Below are positions 26,391 through 34,592 of a stretch of 64,000 bases of DNA, one piece after another. The position numbers and the translations under genes are program-made. The notes under the pieces were generated by a model. That model worked only from the letters and a program-made list of their open reading frames with translations, was not told where the DNA came from and did not search any database. Where the stretch lies: the NCBI GenBank assembly GCA_003166865.1, contig PMUP01000023.1:44718-108717 (forward strand). Direction: 5' to 3'. This DNA comes from Bryobacterales bacterium (lineage in GTDB: Bacteria > Acidobacteriota > Terriglobia > Bryobacterales > Bryobacteraceae). The number at the start of each line of letters is the position of its first letter. Position 1 is the first letter of the stretch.

Positions 26391-27677
26391 CTAGTGAGAC
26401 CCCACGATGCTGAATTCCACGGGATTTGACACCACCACGAAATCGGCCGGCCGCGTTTGGCCCACGTCTAGCCCGATCAGCGGCCGCCACGTCACCCACA
26501 GCGTATAGGAGCCCACCCGATCGGGCGCCATTCCAAGTAAATTCGACTCCAGTATCCAAGGTTCACCGGCGCGGTAGGGAGCCGGAGTGGTGTCGCCGCT
26601 CCAGTATTCCGAATCCATCTTCCGTTCTGATAAATGCCCATCGGCGTCACGAATCGATATGGCGATATCCGGCAGCAGCCGCTGGACCCCCCAGAACACT
26701 CCTGGACCTTCCGCAAAAGTTGCGGTAGCGATATGCAACGGAATCGCCTGGCCGATTTCGTAGCTCGGCCGATCCAGGGTCAAATTCGCGGCCAAGCCGT
26801 GCACTTGGGGTCCCCAGGTGCGTTGCACAGTCTGGATGTCAATCACTCTGACTGCAATCGTGTTCGACCGCACTCTCGCGACCTTGCCCTGGCCGGCATC
26901 AAATTCTTCGGTGATGTCGAGCGTGAAATCCTTCTCCGGATGATAGCCCCAGCTAAAGGTCCATGCAATCCGGCCGTCAGGAGCCCTCTGCTCACCCTTA
27001 CTATTGAGGCAACCGCCATAATTTTGCATCTCGAACAGGTGCTCCACTCGGGTATCTCCGTCTTTATCGGGGAATCGCAAAAAGAGTGAGGGGCACGGCG
27101 GCGATGACGGTGCAACCATCTTTGGCGAGCCTACATCATCGCGCTCCAGCTTCAACCGGATCGCACTGCCGGTGAAGATGGTACCCAGCTCGGACGAAAG
27201 AGTAAGTGATTTTGGAGCCAGCGAACCTGAGGCGGGCGCGGTTGCAGAACCAGGATCGCCGGGAGCCAGCAGACCAAATGAACTGACTCGCATGGGCGGG
27301 CAGATGTGAAGCGGCCCGGGTAAGAACGTAATCGGGGTCGACAGCCACCCTACCGTGGGACACTCTGCGGCCGAGTGGAACTCCACCACCTCCTTGGCCG
27401 TGCTGGCCGGCGTTATGACGACTGGCGCGATTGATCTTCGAAATTGCGAAGGCTCCGGGGCCCCTGTTACCTCCGGCGCCTCCCGAAATGAGCAGGCATG
27501 GTCACTAACGTTCTTGAGATAGAAAACGATGGACACGTCGCTCGCGCCCGGATCGGACATCTCGACATTGCTATCGAGATCCGCGGTCCGGCACTCGGCG
27601 ATACCTGACCCTGGCTGCGTTTGGCCGGCGGCCTGCCCGAACACGAGCGCCGCGAACAGAGCGAATTGAGAGCTCAC
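26391..27677 (-). CDS. Secreted hypothetical protein with Ig-like segments
   Basis: 428 residues, start GTG at 27677 with AGGAAGGAG about six bases upstream. Signal peptide MSSQFALFAALVFGQAAGQ. The mature part is beta-rich with two Ig-like stretches: VSIVFYLKNVSDHACSFRE near the N-terminus, and TLDRPSYEIGQAIPLHIATA with GSYTLWVTWRPLIGLD near the C-terminus. Several cysteines may form disulfides. No enzyme motif seen. It lies 16 bases after the STAS gene and may be co-transcribed. Confidence 0.6.
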   Translation of the reverse strand: MSSQFALFAALVFGQAAGQTQPGSGIAECRTADLDSNVEMSDPGASDVSIVFYLKNVSDHACSFREAPEVTGAPEPSQFRRSIAPVVITPASTAKEVVEFHSAAECPTVGWLSTPITFLPGPLHICPPMRVSSFGLLAPGDPGSATAPASGSLAPKSLTLSSELGTIFTGSAIRLKLERDDVGSPKMVAPSSPPCPSLFLRFPDKDGDTRVEHLFEMQNYGGCLNSKGEQRAPDGRIAWTFSWGYHPEKDFTLDITEEFDAGQGKVARVRSNTIAVRVIDIQTVQRTWGPQVHGLAANLTLDRPSYEIGQAIPLHIATATFAEGPGVFWGVQRLLPDIAISIRDADGHLSERKMDSEYWSGDTTPAPYRAGEPWILESNLLGMAPDRVGSYTLWVTWRPLIGLDVGQTRPADFVVVSNPVEFSIVGSH

Positions 27678-28139: not shown

Positions 28140-28538
28140 ATGCTGCGCACCATCGGGTCGGTTTTGGCCGGGTATATCGCGATCGGAGTCCTGGTGGCTC
28201 TCACGGACCTCGTCTTTACGGTCGCGATTCCGGGTTTCCGCAGCATGGCCACACCGCCGCTCTATTATTTCGCGATCGTGACGTTCACTGACACGCTGTA
28301 CTCAGCCGCCGGCGGATATTTGTGCGCCGCGACCGCGCGCGCCTCTGCTCGCATGGCCACGCTGGGGCTGATGATCTTCGGCGAAATCGTGGGCGTCGTC
28401 ACAACCGTCCTGTTCTGGCACAACCAGCCGCACTGGTTCGCGTTCGCGCTGCTGGTGCTATTCCCGTTCGCGGTATGGATCGGATACAGGCTGCGAGCGC
28501 GCGGCGCCGTGCCGGCCATGGCCAGCGACGCAGTCTAG
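28140..28538 (+). CDS. Hypothetical four-helix membrane protein
   Basis: 132 residues with four hydrophobic helices (about 5-28, 42-62, 72-92, 98-117) and almost no loops; starts MLRTIGSVLAGYIAIGVLVA. No family recognised. The last four bases overlap the convergent SDR gene. Confidence 0.6.
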   Translation: MLRTIGSVLAGYIAIGVLVALTDLVFTVAIPGFRSMATPPLYYFAIVTFTDTLYSAAGGYLCAATARASARMATLGLMIFGEIVGVVTTVLFWHNQPHWFAFALLVLFPFAVWIGYRLRARGAVPAMASDAV

Positions 28539-29488
28539 GCCCGGGCCGCATCTTCGGCCGGGAGCTTAAGGTCCAGACCGAAGTCTTTCTTCACGCGCTT
28601 ACGAAAACCCTCGGCATCCAGCGCGTTGAAATCGATCCACTCTTCATCCGTCATGGCGGCTCTCCAACTCAGAAATGGCTGGGCATCTGGTCCGCAAGGA
28701 TGCCGTAGTTTCCAGGTGCCGCTTTCGATGATATTTCTGATTGCCTCGGCGATGATGGACGGCGGCGCCGGTTGCGCGAGAGCAGCCTGAACCAATGCCG
28801 CGAAGTTCCTTGCGTGACGGTAGCGTGACGGAGGCGCGTCGGTGATTGCGTGCGCCATCGGCGTCTCGATGATACCGGGTTCCACGATGGCAACCCGCAC
28901 TCCAAACGGTTTCATCTCCCCGGCCAGTGCTTCGCTAAGGGCCTCCAGCGCGAACTTCGACGCCGTATATGCGGCCATCGACAAACCTGCGATCTTTCCC
29001 GCTACCGAGCTAACATTGATGATGCAACCGCTCCTACGCTCCCGCATGCCCGGCACCACCTGGCGAATGCACCGCAGAGCTCCGAAATAGTTGGTCTCCA
29101 TGGTGGCCCGAAATTCTTCCATGGGAAGTTCTTCCACCGAGCCGTGCCGCTCGATGCCGGCATTGTTGACCAGAACGTCAATAGGCCCGACTGCCGCGAA
29201 GCACTCCGTAACGGAGCGGTCGGAGTCGACATCCATGGTGAGAATGGAAGTCGGCAGCTTCTCCTGGGCAACGCGTTCACCCAGTTCCGGCGCGCGCGCG
29301 GGATTGCGCATCGTGGCATAGACCTGGTGGCCCGCCCTCCCGAGTTCCAACGCGGTAGCCAGTCCTATTCCGGAACTGGTTCCTGTGATCAGTATCTTTG
29401 CCGTCAGTTCTTCCTCGCTCGGTCCAGCGTACCAACTATCTCGGTCGCCGAACGAGCGCCGCTCCCCTGGCCGATGGTCCGCCTCCAT
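28535..29488 (-). CDS. Short-chain dehydrogenase/reductase
   Basis: A classical SDR: cofactor motif ILITGTSSGIGLATALEL, NNAG (VLVNNAGIERHG), catalytic Ser in IINVSSVAGKIAGLSM and YTASK (AAYTASKFALEAL). The frame stays open to an ATG at 29569, but the first 50 or so residues there look non-coding. I give the ATG at 29488; a CTG near 29407 right before the Rossmann strand, after GAGGAAG, is also possible. Substrate unknown; the size suggests a retinol/steroid-type oxidoreductase. Confidence 0.85.
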   Translation of the reverse strand: MEADHRPGERRSFGDRDSWYAGPSEEELTAKILITGTSSGIGLATALELGRAGHQVYATMRNPARAPELGERVAQEKLPTSILTMDVDSDRSVTECFAAVGPIDVLVNNAGIERHGSVEELPMEEFRATMETNYFGALRCIRQVVPGMRERRSGCIINVSSVAGKIAGLSMAAYTASKFALEALSEALAGEMKPFGVRVAIVEPGIIETPMAHAITDAPPSRYRHARNFAALVQAALAQPAPPSIIAEAIRNIIESGTWKLRHPCGPDAQPFLSWRAAMTDEEWIDFNALDAEGFRKRVKKDFGLDLKLPAEDAARA

Positions 29489-29723
29489 CGGTCCAACGCC
29501 AGGCAACCGCGCCTTGAGGGCTGCGTGAATTACGGAGTATCCCACGAATGGCGGCTTCAACGAGTTCACCTAACGCACGGTGCACCACCCCAGCCCAACT
29601 ACCGCGGGTCTTGCCGGTGGGCGCAACCATTACATGGGCGTGGTGGAAATCGAGAAGATTGGGATTAGGAGCCGTTTATTCTGTGCTAAACTTTACCACA
29701 CTTCCGTTTCTGGAGAAACAACC

Positions 29724-30551
29724 GTGAAAACAACTCGCTGTTACGTCCACTTGCTCAGTCTTTTGCTCTTGATTACCACACTCTCGCCTGCGCAGACTAC
29801 CCCTGCAGAGACGAAGGGAGCAGCAATCGGCCAAACCATCAACGCAGCTATTACCGCCGCTCTGCCGGGCGTGTCGGCGATCGAAAATATCGTTGCGGCC
29901 CTTTTCAAGAAGCCAGCTGGCACGGTCGCCCCGACCGCAACTACCAGGGTGACAGCGCAGAATGTGACGGACGCCGTCAAAGGCGCGACGGCTACCTTGC
30001 AGAGCAACGCGCAGGCTCAACTAACTGCTCTGCAAGGTGCTATCGCTGAGATCGCCGCGGCGAACGCCCTCGCGACGGCTGCACAGACCGCGAATACAAG
30101 CCTGACACCCGCGAGAGCCTTTCTCACGATTCCGGACGGAATGCGTGCCTTCAAGACTCAATGGGGCGTCGCAAAGCAGAATCTCAAGACGGTGACATCT
30201 TTCGACTCGTCGAAGCTCGGGAAGATTAGCAGCGAGTCTATACTGGACGCTTGGAACTTGCTCAACCAAAACTACACTCAATGGGAATCCGATGTAGACC
30301 TCTATTCCAGTCAAACGCCGCCGAATTTGGCGCTAGTTCTTTCGAGCTTCGATAAGTTGTTGACATCCGTCCAGGGGATAGCAACGATACCCAGCGTTGA
30401 ACTATCGCTGCTTGCCAACCAGCTCAGCACTATCAAAGCTCAGGCCGCCATCGGAACCGGCACGCCGCCGCCTCCGCCCCCACCCCCCGCAACCTTGCTC
30501 AACGCCGCAGGCTCGCTTGGGGAGTTTATTAAGAGCACTGTGAAGCAATGA
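29724..30551 (+). CDS. Secreted protein with a novel C-terminal domain (paralogue A)
   Basis: 275 residues from a GTG at 29724 (TGGAGA upstream). Signal peptide MKTTRCYVHLLSLLLLITTL ending near SPAQ. An Ala/Thr-rich helical middle, then about residues 110-240 form a domain shared with the next gene: ANALATAAQTAN, SKLGKISSES, NYTQWESDVDLY, LLANQLST. An eight-proline run follows and a short C-terminal tail. It is probably exported to the periplasm or cell surface. No known family recognised. Confidence 0.7.
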   Translation: MKTTRCYVHLLSLLLLITTLSPAQTTPAETKGAAIGQTINAAITAALPGVSAIENIVAALFKKPAGTVAPTATTRVTAQNVTDAVKGATATLQSNAQAQLTALQGAIAEIAAANALATAAQTANTSLTPARAFLTIPDGMRAFKTQWGVAKQNLKTVTSFDSSKLGKISSESILDAWNLLNQNYTQWESDVDLYSSQTPPNLALVLSSFDKLLTSVQGIATIPSVELSLLANQLSTIKAQAAIGTGTPPPPPPPPATLLNAAGSLGEFIKSTVKQ

Positions 30552-30619
30552 GCGCCGCGAGAACGCCATGCGCCGCCGAATGCGCGGCAAGGAGTAGATT
30601 GTAGACGGGGACGGACCAC

Positions 30620-31513
30620 ATGGACCTGGAGCCCAAACCTTCGCTGAACGCAACGCCCGGTCGCGAAACCCAGGAGGCCGTAAACCTCCGGCTGACGGAA
30701 GACAAGCTGCGGCGGGAATTGTTAGACTTGCGCCGGCCCTATCTGTTGCGCAATTCGCAGCTGCTTACGGCGCTCATCACGTCGCTGGGTGCCGTTATAG
30801 GTGTGTCTCTGCTTATAAAGGACAACTATTTTAAAATTCGGGATGAGAGGTACGCTCTTCAGGATAAGCTTAACGCCCTACAAGCAGTAAACACGGCTCG
30901 TCTAGATGCTGATGCAAAGAAAACCGCCGAGCGCGCGAAACAAGAAAGCAAAGAGGCGGCTCAGCTCGTGGCAGAAGCCGAACGTGCGAAGGCAGCCGCT
31001 AAGAAAGCGATCATCGAGTCAAACGAACAAATCAAAGCCGCTAATGACCTCCTTGCAGCTACAAAGCGCCAGCTGAAGGACGCGCAGCTGGAGCTCGAAG
31101 CTGCGAATGCCCTCGCAATGACCACACAGAGCGCGAATGCGAGCATGATTAAAGCGGGTGTCTATCTGCAAGTTGGGGACTGGAACAATTTCAACAATGA
31201 CTGGAACGTCGCGAGAGTTTACCTTCAGAAGGTGAAGAACTCCGACCTTTCTAAGCTTGGTAAAATCAGCAACGAACCAATGAAAGCGATTTGGACGGCC
31301 TTCACCGATGGCTACGGGGAGTGGATTGCCGAGGTCACTGACGGCTCCGCGAAGAAGGATCTGACGCTGACCCACCTGGGCTTCGACCGCATGCAGAGAG
31401 CCGTTCAAGACCTCGCTATGGTATCGAGCATCGAGCTCCACCAACTCGCCAACCGGCTCAGCACTTTATCAGGGCCCCAGTCGGAGTCCAAGCCCGCGAC
31501 CGGAGTTCCGTAG
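30620..31513 (+). CDS. Membrane-anchored coiled-coil protein sharing that domain (paralogue B)
   Basis: 297 residues. One membrane helix at about 46-66 (LLTALITSLGAVIGVSLLI), then a long coiled coil at about 75-160 rich in Ala, Lys and Glu, and residues 158-283 that align with paralogue A: ANALAMTTQSAN, WNNFNNDWNVARVYLQKV, SKLGKISNEP, VQDLAMVSSIELHQLANRLS. With one signal-peptide copy and one anchored copy 68 bases apart, the two may interact. Function unknown. Confidence 0.7.
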   Translation: MDLEPKPSLNATPGRETQEAVNLRLTEDKLRRELLDLRRPYLLRNSQLLTALITSLGAVIGVSLLIKDNYFKIRDERYALQDKLNALQAVNTARLDADAKKTAERAKQESKEAAQLVAEAERAKAAAKKAIIESNEQIKAANDLLAATKRQLKDAQLELEAANALAMTTQSANASMIKAGVYLQVGDWNNFNNDWNVARVYLQKVKNSDLSKLGKISNEPMKAIWTAFTDGYGEWIAEVTDGSAKKDLTLTHLGFDRMQRAVQDLAMVSSIELHQLANRLSTLSGPQSESKPATGVP

Positions 31514-31606
31514 CCTTGCCCGAGCCAACATCTGAGCAACTGGTTCTGGAATAGGACTAGCTACACGTTAGACCTTGGCGTGGCCAATTTTGGAGTCTTA
31601 GCTTCG

Positions 31607-31980
31607 ATGGTTCTCGACGTTGGTTGCGGTGCGCGCAAGGCCGAACCGGACGCGGTAGGTATCGATATCCCACCGCGATCGGTGCCGACATCGGATGGGA
31701 CCTAAATGAGTTTCCCTGGCCCTTCCAGAGCGACGCGTTCGACCGTATTCACATGTCACATATCATCGAGCATGTGCGGGGCGCGTCGCGGACCACGGCG
31801 GAGATCTCCACATGCGGCATCTGGCCGCACGAAGCTTCCAGCGTTTCACGGGAGCCGATTTTGCGACCCTTACGGGCTCGAATATATCAGCATCGACAAG
31901 CTGGAGCTGATATTTGGAAAAAACTTCGTTCTGGAAGGAACGGCCGTTGGCTGGCGCGCCGCGTCCCGTGATCCCATCGC
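31607..31980 (+). pseudogene. Degraded SAM-dependent methyltransferase
   Basis: Broken pieces of one methyltransferase appear in order but in different frames: MVLDVGCGARKAEPDAVGID, then GADIGWDLNEFPWPF with AFDRIHMSHIIEHVRG, then DPYGLEYISIDKLELIFG. This is the order of a methyltransferase-11 fold (motif I LDVGCG, the D-LN-FPWPF block, the HIIEHV block). At least two frameshifts and a deletion separate them, so no product is possible. Confidence 0.75.
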
Positions 31981-32043
31981 TTACGCTATGATGTCACGAG
32001 TTGAAACACTCGCGGCGAATGTGCGTCCAAGGAGGGACCGCTC

Positions 32044-32313
32044 ATGCCATGCCTGTTCCTGATCGTGATCCTGCTGTTCCCGCGCGTCGCGCTGGCGCTC
32101 CTGTTCCTGTTCACGCATTACCTGGACCGCGCCTTCCACAGCATCCTCCTCCTAATCCTAGGCTTCATATTCTTGCCATTCACGACGCTGGTGTTTGCCT
32201 GGATGGTCAACAGCGGCTTGCCGATCGCAGGGGTCAACCTGTTGTGGCTCTTGCTAGCCGTAATGGCGGATTTGGGAACGGTCGGGCATGGGTACAGCCG
32301 CCGACGGGCGTAA
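32044..32313 (+). CDS. Small hydrophobic membrane protein
   Basis: 89 residues with two or three membrane helices (MPCLFLIVILLFPRVALALL; SILLLILGFIFLPFTTLVFA; GVNLLWLLLAVMADLGTVG). An AGGAGGG precedes the ATG by six bases. No family recognised; the C-terminal part (NLLWLLLAVMADLG) is typical of small two-helix proteins of unknown role. Confidence 0.65.
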   Translation: MPCLFLIVILLFPRVALALLFLFTHYLDRAFHSILLLILGFIFLPFTTLVFAWMVNSGLPIAGVNLLWLLLAVMADLGTVGHGYSRRRA

Positions 32314-32445
32314 GCCCGGACCGGCCCTCGACGTCGGGTCCGGCATGCTATACTGACCAAGTCGGACATAACCTTGCAATCCGCTAAGTGGTTGATTTTA
32401 AAGTACTAACCGCGTAGAATTACCTAACTCTTTCGTTTTCAGAGA

Positions 32446-32489
32446 TTTCCAGAAACCAGGCGTTTCCAGCCTGGAGCCAAGCCCGGAAA
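32446..32489 (+). other. Possible structured leader before the lysozyme-like gene
   Basis: Outer arms TTTCC (32446-32450) and GGAAA (32485-32489) enclose a perfect CCAGGC/GCCTGG stem (32456-32474). The outer right arm touches the AAAGGA ribosome site of the gene at 32501, so folding could hide it. I could not match it to a known riboswitch. Confidence 0.35.
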
Positions 32490-32500
32490 GGAATTACTTA

Positions 32501-32995
32501 ATGAGGGATTTTCTTTTGATTGCCGGACTGCTGGCAGCACCGTTCACAACCAGCGTTCAGCAGTATCGCGCCGAGCCGGCCGTGGACCAGAACGACCCGC
32601 GGCTGTCCCGGCTGACGAAGTTCTTTGCCGACCGCGATTGCCCGCTTCGAGATTCAGCGATGGATTTTCTGGTAGCCGCCGACCAAAACGAGCTGGATTG
32701 GAGGCTGCTGCCGAGCATCTCCATTATTGAATCGAGCGGAGGCAAGGATTACACGAACAACAACGTTTTCGGCTGGGATTCGTGCAAGGAGCGGTTTACT
32801 TCGGTGCGGGCGGGGATTCACTATGTGGCGGCTCAGCTTGGAAAATCAAGCAGATACAAGGGCAAAAACGTCGACCGCAAGCTGCAGATCTACAACCCCT
32901 TGCCAGAGTACTCCCAGCGCGTGAAGGCTGTTATGCGAGCCATGGGCGATCGCTCGCAGTCCGGCCCCCAACTGCGGACGTTAGCCGCGGATTGA
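32501..32995 (+). CDS. Lysozyme-like/glucosaminidase-fold secreted protein
   Basis: 164 residues. N-terminal signal-like stretch (MRDFLLIAGLLAAPF). The body has a lysozyme-type pattern: LLPSISIIESSGGKDYTNNN with a likely catalytic Glu in IIESSG, NVFGWDSC, RAGIHYVAAQLGKS and NPLPEYSQRVKAVM. It may cut peptidoglycan or bind it in the periplasm. A possible structured leader lies just upstream. Confidence 0.72.
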   Translation: MRDFLLIAGLLAAPFTTSVQQYRAEPAVDQNDPRLSRLTKFFADRDCPLRDSAMDFLVAADQNELDWRLLPSISIIESSGGKDYTNNNVFGWDSCKERFTSVRAGIHYVAAQLGKSSRYKGKNVDRKLQIYNPLPEYSQRVKAVMRAMGDRSQSGPQLRTLAAD

Positions 32996-33002
32996 GTCCA
33001 GC

Positions 33003-33155
33003 TTAACCGCCTTGCATGACGTGAACGCCCCAGTAAAGGCCACCGAAGACGATCAGTGAGATTGCGATAACTAAAACCCAGCGGATTACCCGCTCGGTGT
33101 TGGACGAGGACTTGTGAGCGTCCAATTTGATTTGCTCGTCGAGGCTTTCGAACAT
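33003..33155 (-). CDS. 50-residue single-helix membrane protein
   Basis: Too short for usual gene calls but well supported: GGGAGGT seven bases before the ATG at 33155 and a clear amphipathic N-terminus (MFESLDEQIKLDAHKSSSN) followed by one membrane helix (VIRWVLVIAISLIVFGGLYW). Role unknown. It converges on the lysozyme-like gene with a seven-base gap. Confidence 0.7.
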   Translation of the reverse strand: MFESLDEQIKLDAHKSSSNTERVIRWVLVIAISLIVFGGLYWGVHVMQGG

Positions 33156-33275
33156 AGATAACCTCCCGGACTTGGCTTGTGCTGCCCAAGTATATTCCTG
33201 ATATGCACGAAATGACAGGGTGTTAGTCGCTTTGTGCTAATTGCTTTGTTTTGAATAGGCTTAGCGTGGGCGGGC

Positions 33276-34592
33276 TTACAGCGCCATGCGTTCCAGCTTG
33301 CGATAAAGCGTTTTCCGCTCGATCCCCAGGATTTTTGCCGCGCGGCTTTTGTTGCCGCCGGCGGCTGCCAGCACGCGCCGGATCTGGTCGGCTTCGGTAT
33401 CGGCCAGGCTCTCGCTCGCAGTGTCGCGAGGCTCGGTGAGTTCGATGGCTTCGCGCACCGCGGCGTCGTCGATGCGCCCCTGCGGAGTTACGATGACCAG
33501 CCGCTCGATCATGTGCTGCAGCTGGCGCACGTTTCCCGGCCAACTGTAATTTTCCAGCGCTCGCAATGCCGACTCGGTGATTTTCGCCTGTTGGCCATAG
33601 CGCTCGTTGTATTTCTTCAGAAAATAGTGCGCCAGCAGCGGCACATCGCCCCGGCGTTCCACCAAGGGCGGCAGAATAATGCGCACCACGTTCAGGCGAT
33701 ACCATAGGTCCTCGCGGAATTTGCCCTGATCCACCATCTTTTGCAGATCGCGATTGGTGGCCGCAACCACGCGCACGTCCACCTTTTTCCCGCGCGGCGA
33801 GCCCAACGGCCGGATCTCTTTTTCTTGCAGGAATCGCAGCAAGTTCAGTTGAAAGCCGAGCTCCAGATCGCCGATCTCGTCCAGAAACACCGTGCCATTA
33901 TTGGCGGCCTCGAAAACGCCCATGCGATCGCGATCGGCGCCGGTGTAGGCGCCCTTCAACGCGCCGAACAATTCGCTTTCGAGCAGCGATGGCGCGATGG
34001 ATCCGCAGTCCACCGGCACGAAGGGCTGATGCGCGCGTGCGCTGTTGTTGTGAACCATGCGCGCGATCATCTCCTTGCCGGTGCCGGTTTCGCCTTCCAG
34101 CAGCACCGTGACGTCGGTGGGCGCCACCAGTGAGACGGTCTTGTAGATCTCGACCATTTTGGGCGAGCTGCCGACCATTTCGCTTTCCGGCAGATCGTCG
34201 ATTTCGGATTCCTTGTCGTCCGGCTGCTGGTTGACGCTGGCCTCGGCGCGCTTCACGGTGTCCAGCATGCGGTCCAGCTCGAACGGTTTGGCGATGTAGT
34301 CGAACGCGCCGCCCTGCGTGGCTTTCATCACCGTTTCGATGGTCCCGCGGGCGGTCATCAGAATCACCGCGCAGTTGGGGTTGCACTTGCGCGCGCTGGC
34401 GAGCACATCCAAGCCGGTGCGCTCATCGATGTAAATATCCGAGATAACGATGGGGTAGGAATCGGCGCCCAGACGTTCCAAGGCTTCGCGGGTGGAGGCA
34501 ACGGCATCCACCGTATAGCCTTCCAATTCGAGAAAAGTCCGGATTGTATTTCGGACGGAATTGTCGTCTTCAACCACCAAAAGTCGCTGCAC
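33276..34592 (-). CDS. NtrC-family sigma-54-dependent response regulator
   Basis: 438 residues. Receiver with Asp52 (VISDIYID), a sigma-54 AAA+ core with Walker A GETGTGKE and the loop GALKGAYTGA (a GAFTGA variant that contacts sigma-54), Walker B TVFLDEIGDL, and a Fis-type helix-turn-helix (KSRAAKILGIERKTLYRKLE). It activates sigma-54 promoters when phosphorylated; one perfect sigma-54 promoter is at 46915-46930 in this window, though a link is unproven. It follows its kinase by 25 bases. Confidence 0.95.
   Translation of the reverse strand: MQRLLVVEDDNSVRNTIRTFLELEGYTVDAVASTREALERLGADSYPIVISDIYIDERTGLDVLASARKCNPNCAVILMTARGTIETVMKATQGGAFDYIAKPFELDRMLDTVKRAEASVNQQPDDKESEIDDLPESEMVGSSPKMVEIYKTVSLVAPTDVTVLLEGETGTGKEMIARMVHNNSARAHQPFVPVDCGSIAPSLLESELFGALKGAYTGADRDRMGVFEAANNGTVFLDEIGDLELGFQLNLLRFLQEKEIRPLGSPRGKKVDVRVVAATNRDLQKMVDQGKFREDLWYRLNVVRIILPPLVERRGDVPLLAHYFLKKYNERYGQQAKITESALRALENYSWPGNVRQLQHMIERLVIVTPQGRIDDAAVREAIELTEPRDTASESLADTEADQIRRVLAAAGGNKSRAAKILGIERKTLYRKLERMAL

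Follow-up and report, generated by a model that had tools for sequence, protein, structure and literature searches.

An apparently taxon-restricted tandem pair of paralogues in a Bryobacterales genome shares a predicted helical-bundle domain behind a putative signal peptide in one protein and a membrane helix in the other

Why do two adjacent genes carry a similar C-terminal region behind dissimilar N-termini, and do their products work together? The question is raised by P1 and P2, which lie in tandem on a common strand of a Bryobacterales contig (PMUP01000023.1); the whole stretch of DNA that was analyzed, 64,000 nucleotides long, is referred to below as the window. A preliminary description of this DNA had read the pair as paralogues, one secreted and one anchored, whose shared C-terminal domain belonged to no named family, and had proposed that they form a cell-envelope system situated in an accessory region. 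The features discussed here are listed in Table 1.

Table 1. Coordinates of the gene pair, of the domain shared by its products and of neighboring features (positions in the window).
Feature	Position	Strand	Description
P1	29724..30551	+	275 aa, GTG start; intact frame
P1 layout			signal peptide ~1-24 (by eye), Ala/Thr-rich linker, domain ~103-240, eight-proline run, short tail
Shared domain in P1	30030..30443	+	residues 103-240
P2	30620..31513	+	297 aa, ATG start; intact frame
P2 layout			47-residue N-terminal segment, membrane helix 48-66, helical stalk ~70-165, C-terminal domain
Shared domain in P2	31073..31471	+	residues 152-284
Methyltransferase-like remnant	31607..32000	+	pieces in two frames; adjoins P2, outside the pair
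Conserved right flank	32044..34592		89-aa ORF (+), glucosaminidase-like ORF (+), sigma-54 response regulator (-)

The start and stop positions first given for the two ORFs are correct, and a gap of 68 bases separates them. An alternative upstream GTG would give a P1 of 323 aa; in our judgement the start at 29724 is to be preferred, because the longer form would bury the hydrophobic leader. A consensus scan of positions 29300–32600 found no promoter-like site 5′ of P1 and no terminator-like site in the gap between the genes, its totals of 2 and 2 being at about shuffle level (means of 1.2 and 3.6). Six antisense ORFs of at least 60 aa overlap P1 or P2, the smallest being a 61-aa ORF at 30961–31146; the scan of the other five (83–141 aa) gave no Pfam match above the cut-off, the best having E = 0.11.

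BLASTP aligns residues 103–248 of P1 with residues 152–297 of P2 at E = 9e-20 (73.6 bits), with 53 of 149 positions identical (36%). The two full proteins reach a local alignment score of 226, and the highest score among 2000 shuffles was 74 when the whole sequences were shuffled and 95 when shuffling was local. The core alone (P1 132–240, P2 180–285) scores 159, the corresponding highest values being 55 and 61; for full proteins and core alike, 0 of 2000 shuffles of either kind reached the observed score. The common C-terminal region of the preliminary description is thus real. The stretches N-terminal to the domain have no detectable kinship, as 955 and 1102 of 2000 shuffles match the observed score. 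Among the motifs first picked out by eye, ANALA, AN, SKLGKIS, VQ and LAN.LST are indeed invariant between the two proteins; W..F...W stands only in part, with the F and the last W invariant and the first W of P2 replaced by Met in P1.

Across the domain, aligned over 132 codons, 38% of the amino acids are identical, and the proportion of synonymous differences exceeds that of nonsynonymous ones (pS 0.65, pN 0.39; Fisher p = 2e-5). This gives a dN/dS of about 0.37, an approximate value since dS, at about 1.5, is near saturation. The comparison points to constraint on the domain at the protein level (purifying selection) since P1 and P2 split, and the near-saturation of synonymous sites suggests that the duplication is old. 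Judged from their sequences, P1 and P2 are true paralogues.

The N-terminal parts were described as a signal peptide in P1 and a membrane helix with a coiled coil in P2. The P1 leader does look by eye like a Sec-type signal peptide, with a hydrophobic VHLLSLLLLITTL followed by SPA ahead of QTT, but the mean hydropathy of residues 6–24 is only 1.42, which is weakly hydrophobic for a signal peptide. A second hydrophobic stretch, in the linker (residues 43–61, mean hydropathy 1.62), makes it less than certain that P1 is a free protein. These are the two 19-residue segments of P1 with a mean hydropathy of at least 1.4; both are N-terminal to the domain and none is C-terminal to it. The helical periodicity of P1 70–130 is not above that of shuffled sequences (441 of 2000 as strong).

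P2 has one such segment, at residues 48–66, which also lies N-terminal to the domain; it is strongly hydrophobic (mean hydropathy 2.34) and a clear candidate for the membrane helix. The 96 residues that follow (70–165) contain neither Gly nor Pro, are rich in Ala (25), Lys (12) and Glu (10), and overlap at their end with the first helix of the domain. Their helical periodicity is only weakly above that of shuffled sequences (85 of 2000 as strong), and therefore “long helical stalk” is safer wording than “coiled coil”. By eye, the charges flanking the membrane helix are nearly balanced, which leaves the orientation of P2 uncertain. We favor placing the P2 domain outside, since homologous domains are likely to share a compartment.

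AlphaFold2, proposed at the outset as a check, predicts four helices in the P2 domain and in full-length P1. For the P2 domain (residues 149–287, from the two-row alignment of P1 and P2) the helices lie at 2–37, 40–58, 71–92 and 100–136 of the model; the best of five models has a mean pLDDT of 82.4 and a pTM of 0.77, and the other four have mean pLDDTs of 64.5, 58.1, 45.0 and 44.9. In full-length P1 the helices lie at 72–133 (starting ahead of the domain), 140–158, 170–195 and 202–220; the mean pLDDT is 58.8, with block means of 67–88 over residues 101–220 and of 59 or less in all other blocks. The two predictions agree, yet both are based on the same two sequences.

Both proteins are absent from all four congeners (G001–G004). 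Searches for relatives used profiles built from two sequences only and were all limited in reach; in the larger genome scans, few candidates are scored for each genome (no more than nine among the genomes listed). In a set of 61 related genomes, the genome itself included, P2 matches 2 and P1 matches 5 at E ≤ 0.01, and in single-protein searches of the order at E ≤ 0.001 P2 matches 3 and P1 matches 4 of 257 genomes. The two-row profile matched 5 of 237 genomes of the family at E ≤ 0.1, 1 of 299 of the class at E ≤ 0.01, namely the genome itself, and 2 of 396 of the phylum at E ≤ 0.01; these family, order, class and phylum samples overlap, and the genome itself accounts for one in each count. 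Within that genome, P1 and P2 are the only places that the profile matches at E ≤ 0.01. Neither protein has a tblastn match in phages or plasmids at E ≤ 0.01, and two genome-contig scans and four viral-contig scans (IMG/VR), all seeded by short peptide patterns, gave no relative confirmed at tblastn E ≤ 1e-3.

We judge the weak matches outside the pair to be due to chance or to stalk composition. The best of them is in genome G434 (loci L013, L017 and L045), on two contigs, with E = 0.0024 and 0.0175 for the two-row profile and 6.9e-5 with P1 (residues 128–225); a 2-kb locus there gives 33% identity over 96 columns and 41 bits in tblastn. The match runs antisense to a tRNA-thiouridylase-like frame (named by eye) and contains an internal stop, and we judge it to be chance. 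An origin of the domain by overprinting is rejected, because the reciprocal comparison of the G434 frame with the P1 and P2 DNA gives E values of 9.8 and 20, and the DNA matches are just 9–15 bases long. Four genomes (G042, G045, G046 and G056; E = 4.4e-4 to 0.0074) match on what is apparently one FG-GAP-like repeat protein by eye, and the P2 match in G197 (E = 3.4e-4) is by eye an ATP synthase b subunit, covering mainly the membrane helix and stalk. The match in G465 (E = 4.3e-4), a TPR protein by eye, and that in G731 (E = 0.0074) have no tblastn counterpart at E ≤ 1. For G329 (E = 2.0e-4) the best that tblastn finds is a P1 match of 20 residues at E = 0.046, the others being weaker, and for G043 (E = 0.001) and G405 (E = 0.042) matches of 20 and 51 residues; G068 (E = 0.05), G427 (E = 0.06) and locus L003 of the genome itself (E = 0.12) have none at E ≤ 0.01. 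Within their reach, these searches thus place the pair in no genome but its own, and the co-conservation that would have supported the proposed system is lacking. The pair is apparently strongly taxon-restricted, to judge from these sequence searches.

Our preferred reading, with a rough probability of 0.45, is that P1 and P2 form a tandem-duplicated, taxon-restricted family in which an exported P1 and a tethered P2 share an extracytoplasmic helical-bundle domain that associates with itself or with a target common to both. A gene of a strongly taxon-restricted family would have been duplicated in tandem, the helical-bundle domain being retained under purifying selection and the N-termini diverging or being swapped. 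P1 would reach the periplasm via the Sec route, and P2 would be held in the inner membrane by its one N-terminal helix, with the short charged start inside and the stalk and domain outside. The domain's most likely mode of action would be such an association in the cell envelope, with P1 as the free form and P2 as the tethered one. We infer the localization, orientation, pairing and co-expression assumed here; from the adjacency of the genes it is plausible that the two proteins work together.

The duplicates may instead have diverged into separate, unrelated roles with no partnership, their tandem position merely reflecting the origin of the copy. This we consider somewhat unlikely. It would suit the old split, with so low a domain identity and synonymous sites so near saturation, and also the unrelated N-terminal parts and the absence of co-conservation; however, neither frame is disrupted, and the two genes remain side by side at a place where a neighbor has decayed. 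We regard as unlikely the stronger proposal that the shared region founds a hitherto undescribed family of extracytoplasmic helical bundles, with secreted and tethered copies acting in a dedicated complex as a lineage-specific envelope system, for example by P1 competing with or capping a P2 bundle.

The absence of a named family, as first claimed, is borne out in the libraries searched: Pfam, NCBIfam, PHROGs, PADLOC and PDB sequences. Nothing in Pfam or NCBIfam passes a curated cut-off, and there is no match to PDB sequences at E ≤ 1. We set aside Pfam Cwp8_D2 (E = 0.0046; 17.7 bits, below the cut-off of 27), NCBIfam relax_trwC (E = 0.004) and Rad50_Halo (E = 0.0022), both below their respective cut-offs, and weak PHROG and PADLOC matches (best E = 0.021 and 0.015), which are centered on the membrane helix and stalk and in some cases extend into the domain. 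A search of the literature by title and start of abstract found no description of the pair, which is not proof of its being unpublished.

The domain could also be a far-diverged form of one of the known four-helix bundles that serve outside the cytoplasm for sensing or binding (of the 4HB/TarH, NarQ or PsbQ/CyanoQ type), beyond the reach of sequence profiles. Such structures do appear among the top 50 Foldseek matches to the P2-domain model (PcaY_PP sensor domain, E = 0.021; CyanoQ, 0.095; NarQ, 0.14; PsbQ, 0.18), the first being the best of all; however, none of the 668 PDB matches at E ≤ 10 reaches E ≤ 0.001, and none of 409 matches to viral structures does so. Designed and eukaryotic bundles score equally high. 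In VIA-align the top match of the P2 domain is the designed protein 8tn1 (Z 13.6, rmsd 2.8, 133 aligned), compared with Z 11.9, rmsd 3.2 and 130 aligned for NarQ 5jgp, and P1 matches best a designed helical protein (Z 12.5, rmsd 2.7, 112 aligned), followed by CCM3, p130Cas, talin and FAT at Z 10–12; by the program's own warning, a bundle Z below about 13 may mean just a common arrangement. No Pfam match to a sensor family was found either, and we consider this origin quite improbable. As far as the predicted models go, the PDB matches are generic four-helix bundles that do not tell function, and the predicted fold is too common to imply that the domain binds anything.

The surroundings of the pair vary within the genus. 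The order of the 89-aa ORF, the glucosaminidase-like ORF, the sigma-54 response regulator and a histidine kinase is kept in all four congeners, with other ORFs inserted between the second and third in G001 and G004. The first two (32044–32995) are small conserved ORFs near the regulator and kinase: the 89-aa ORF is hydrophobic by eye, and the glucosaminidase-like ORF, of 164 aa, has a Pfam match at E = 0.002, below the cut-off. At E ≤ 1e-3, tblastn does not find P1, P2, the SDR ORF, the STAS ORF, the ORF at 28140 or the 428-aa ORF in the four congener stretches. Three of these reach at least 5 kb past the conserved flank (about 5 kb in G004) and are without the block, and that of G002 is barely informative, as only about 400 bases of contig remain beyond the 89-aa ORF. 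The slot is occupied by other genes in G001, including a CoA-transferase-like pair (by eye), and further left the same contig carries LptE-like, asd, pssA and psd ORFs. The STAS and SDR ORFs have weak DNA matches on other congener contigs and likely have relatives elsewhere in the genus. “Accessory region” is therefore apt for a block that varies in this way, with P1 and P2 in none of the four congeners. The “dead methyltransferase” beside it is a methyltransferase-like remnant in two frames: the joined pieces match Methyltransf_23 at E = 0.0016, below the Pfam cut-off, and its single-frame ORFs have no Pfam match at E ≤ 0.01.

Just 3′ of the P2 stop, positions 31530–31564 match the start of the SDR gene (29355–29389) in inverted orientation at 28 of 35 positions and read in frame as GIGLAT after a stop codon, which may be a relic of an SDR gene. 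An equal match turns up in 14 of 100 dinucleotide shuffles, and we rejected this inverted repeat as an element boundary. The window contains no Rfam match at the gathering score. A recently acquired mobile or phage-borne pair from an unsampled source is very unlikely: it would account for the absence from congeners, the remnants nearby and a third-position GC of 0.65 compared with 0.71–0.80 in asd, pssA, psd, the response regulator, the histidine kinase and pepP, but the ORF at 26391–27677 and the adjoining SDR ORF are close to the pair (0.67–0.69), the phage, plasmid and IMG/VR scans gave no relatives, the window contains no tRNA, and no inverted repeat around the pair exceeds what chance produces.

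As it stands, the pair is a well-documented orphan pair: a clean case of an old duplication inside a family for which 1574 genome searches across the surrounding taxa, same-genome repeats included, gave no relative that convinces. Such a family would either have a hidden reservoir or change too fast to trace. If P1 and P2 do work together, they would show an orphan gene diversifying by a change of export signal.

Several known systems resemble the pair in part. Generic up-and-down bundles (designed ABLE/KABLE, FAT, talin rods, NarQ and PcaY_PP) are alike in having four helices of similar length, as in the predicted model, but identities in VIA-align are 2–15% and no Foldseek match reaches E ≤ 0.001. 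In 4HB/TarH chemoreceptors and NarQ-type sensors, two membrane helices flank a periplasmic sensor bundle of four helices, and a HAMP, methyl-accepting or kinase domain lies in the cytoplasm. For P1 and P2 four helices are predicted, with Foldseek E values of 0.021 or worse; their hydrophobic segments all precede the domain, and Pfam look-ups at E ≤ 1 (where filters remove most matches above about 0.1) list no HAMP, methyl-accepting or kinase domain in either protein. The same look-ups list no match to the PsbQ family, for which PsbQ and CyanoQ give fold matches at weak E values (0.18 and 0.095), nor to the profile of F-type ATP synthase subunit b, which P2 resembles in architecture. A frame in G068 (L015) has, like P2, one membrane helix followed by an Ala/Asn-rich (AANA) stalk by eye, but its C-terminal part is unlike that of P2, the match covering 35 positions at E = 0.05, with no tblastn match to P1 or P2 at E ≤ 0.01. 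Alike in kind are the taxonomically restricted genes of Bacillus: nine homologs “may form paralogous pairs”, and many of the genes carry membrane or signal-peptide signs, a signal peptide being present in 260 (18%) of the motif-bearing ones (PMC10003748). The likeness lies in restriction, paralogous pairing and signs of export; the difference is that the study concerns Bacillus only and that the copies described here differ in anchoring (PMC10003748). Since restricted paralogous pairs with export signs are known from that work, the P1/P2 family, unnamed in the libraries searched, would be of a familiar kind.
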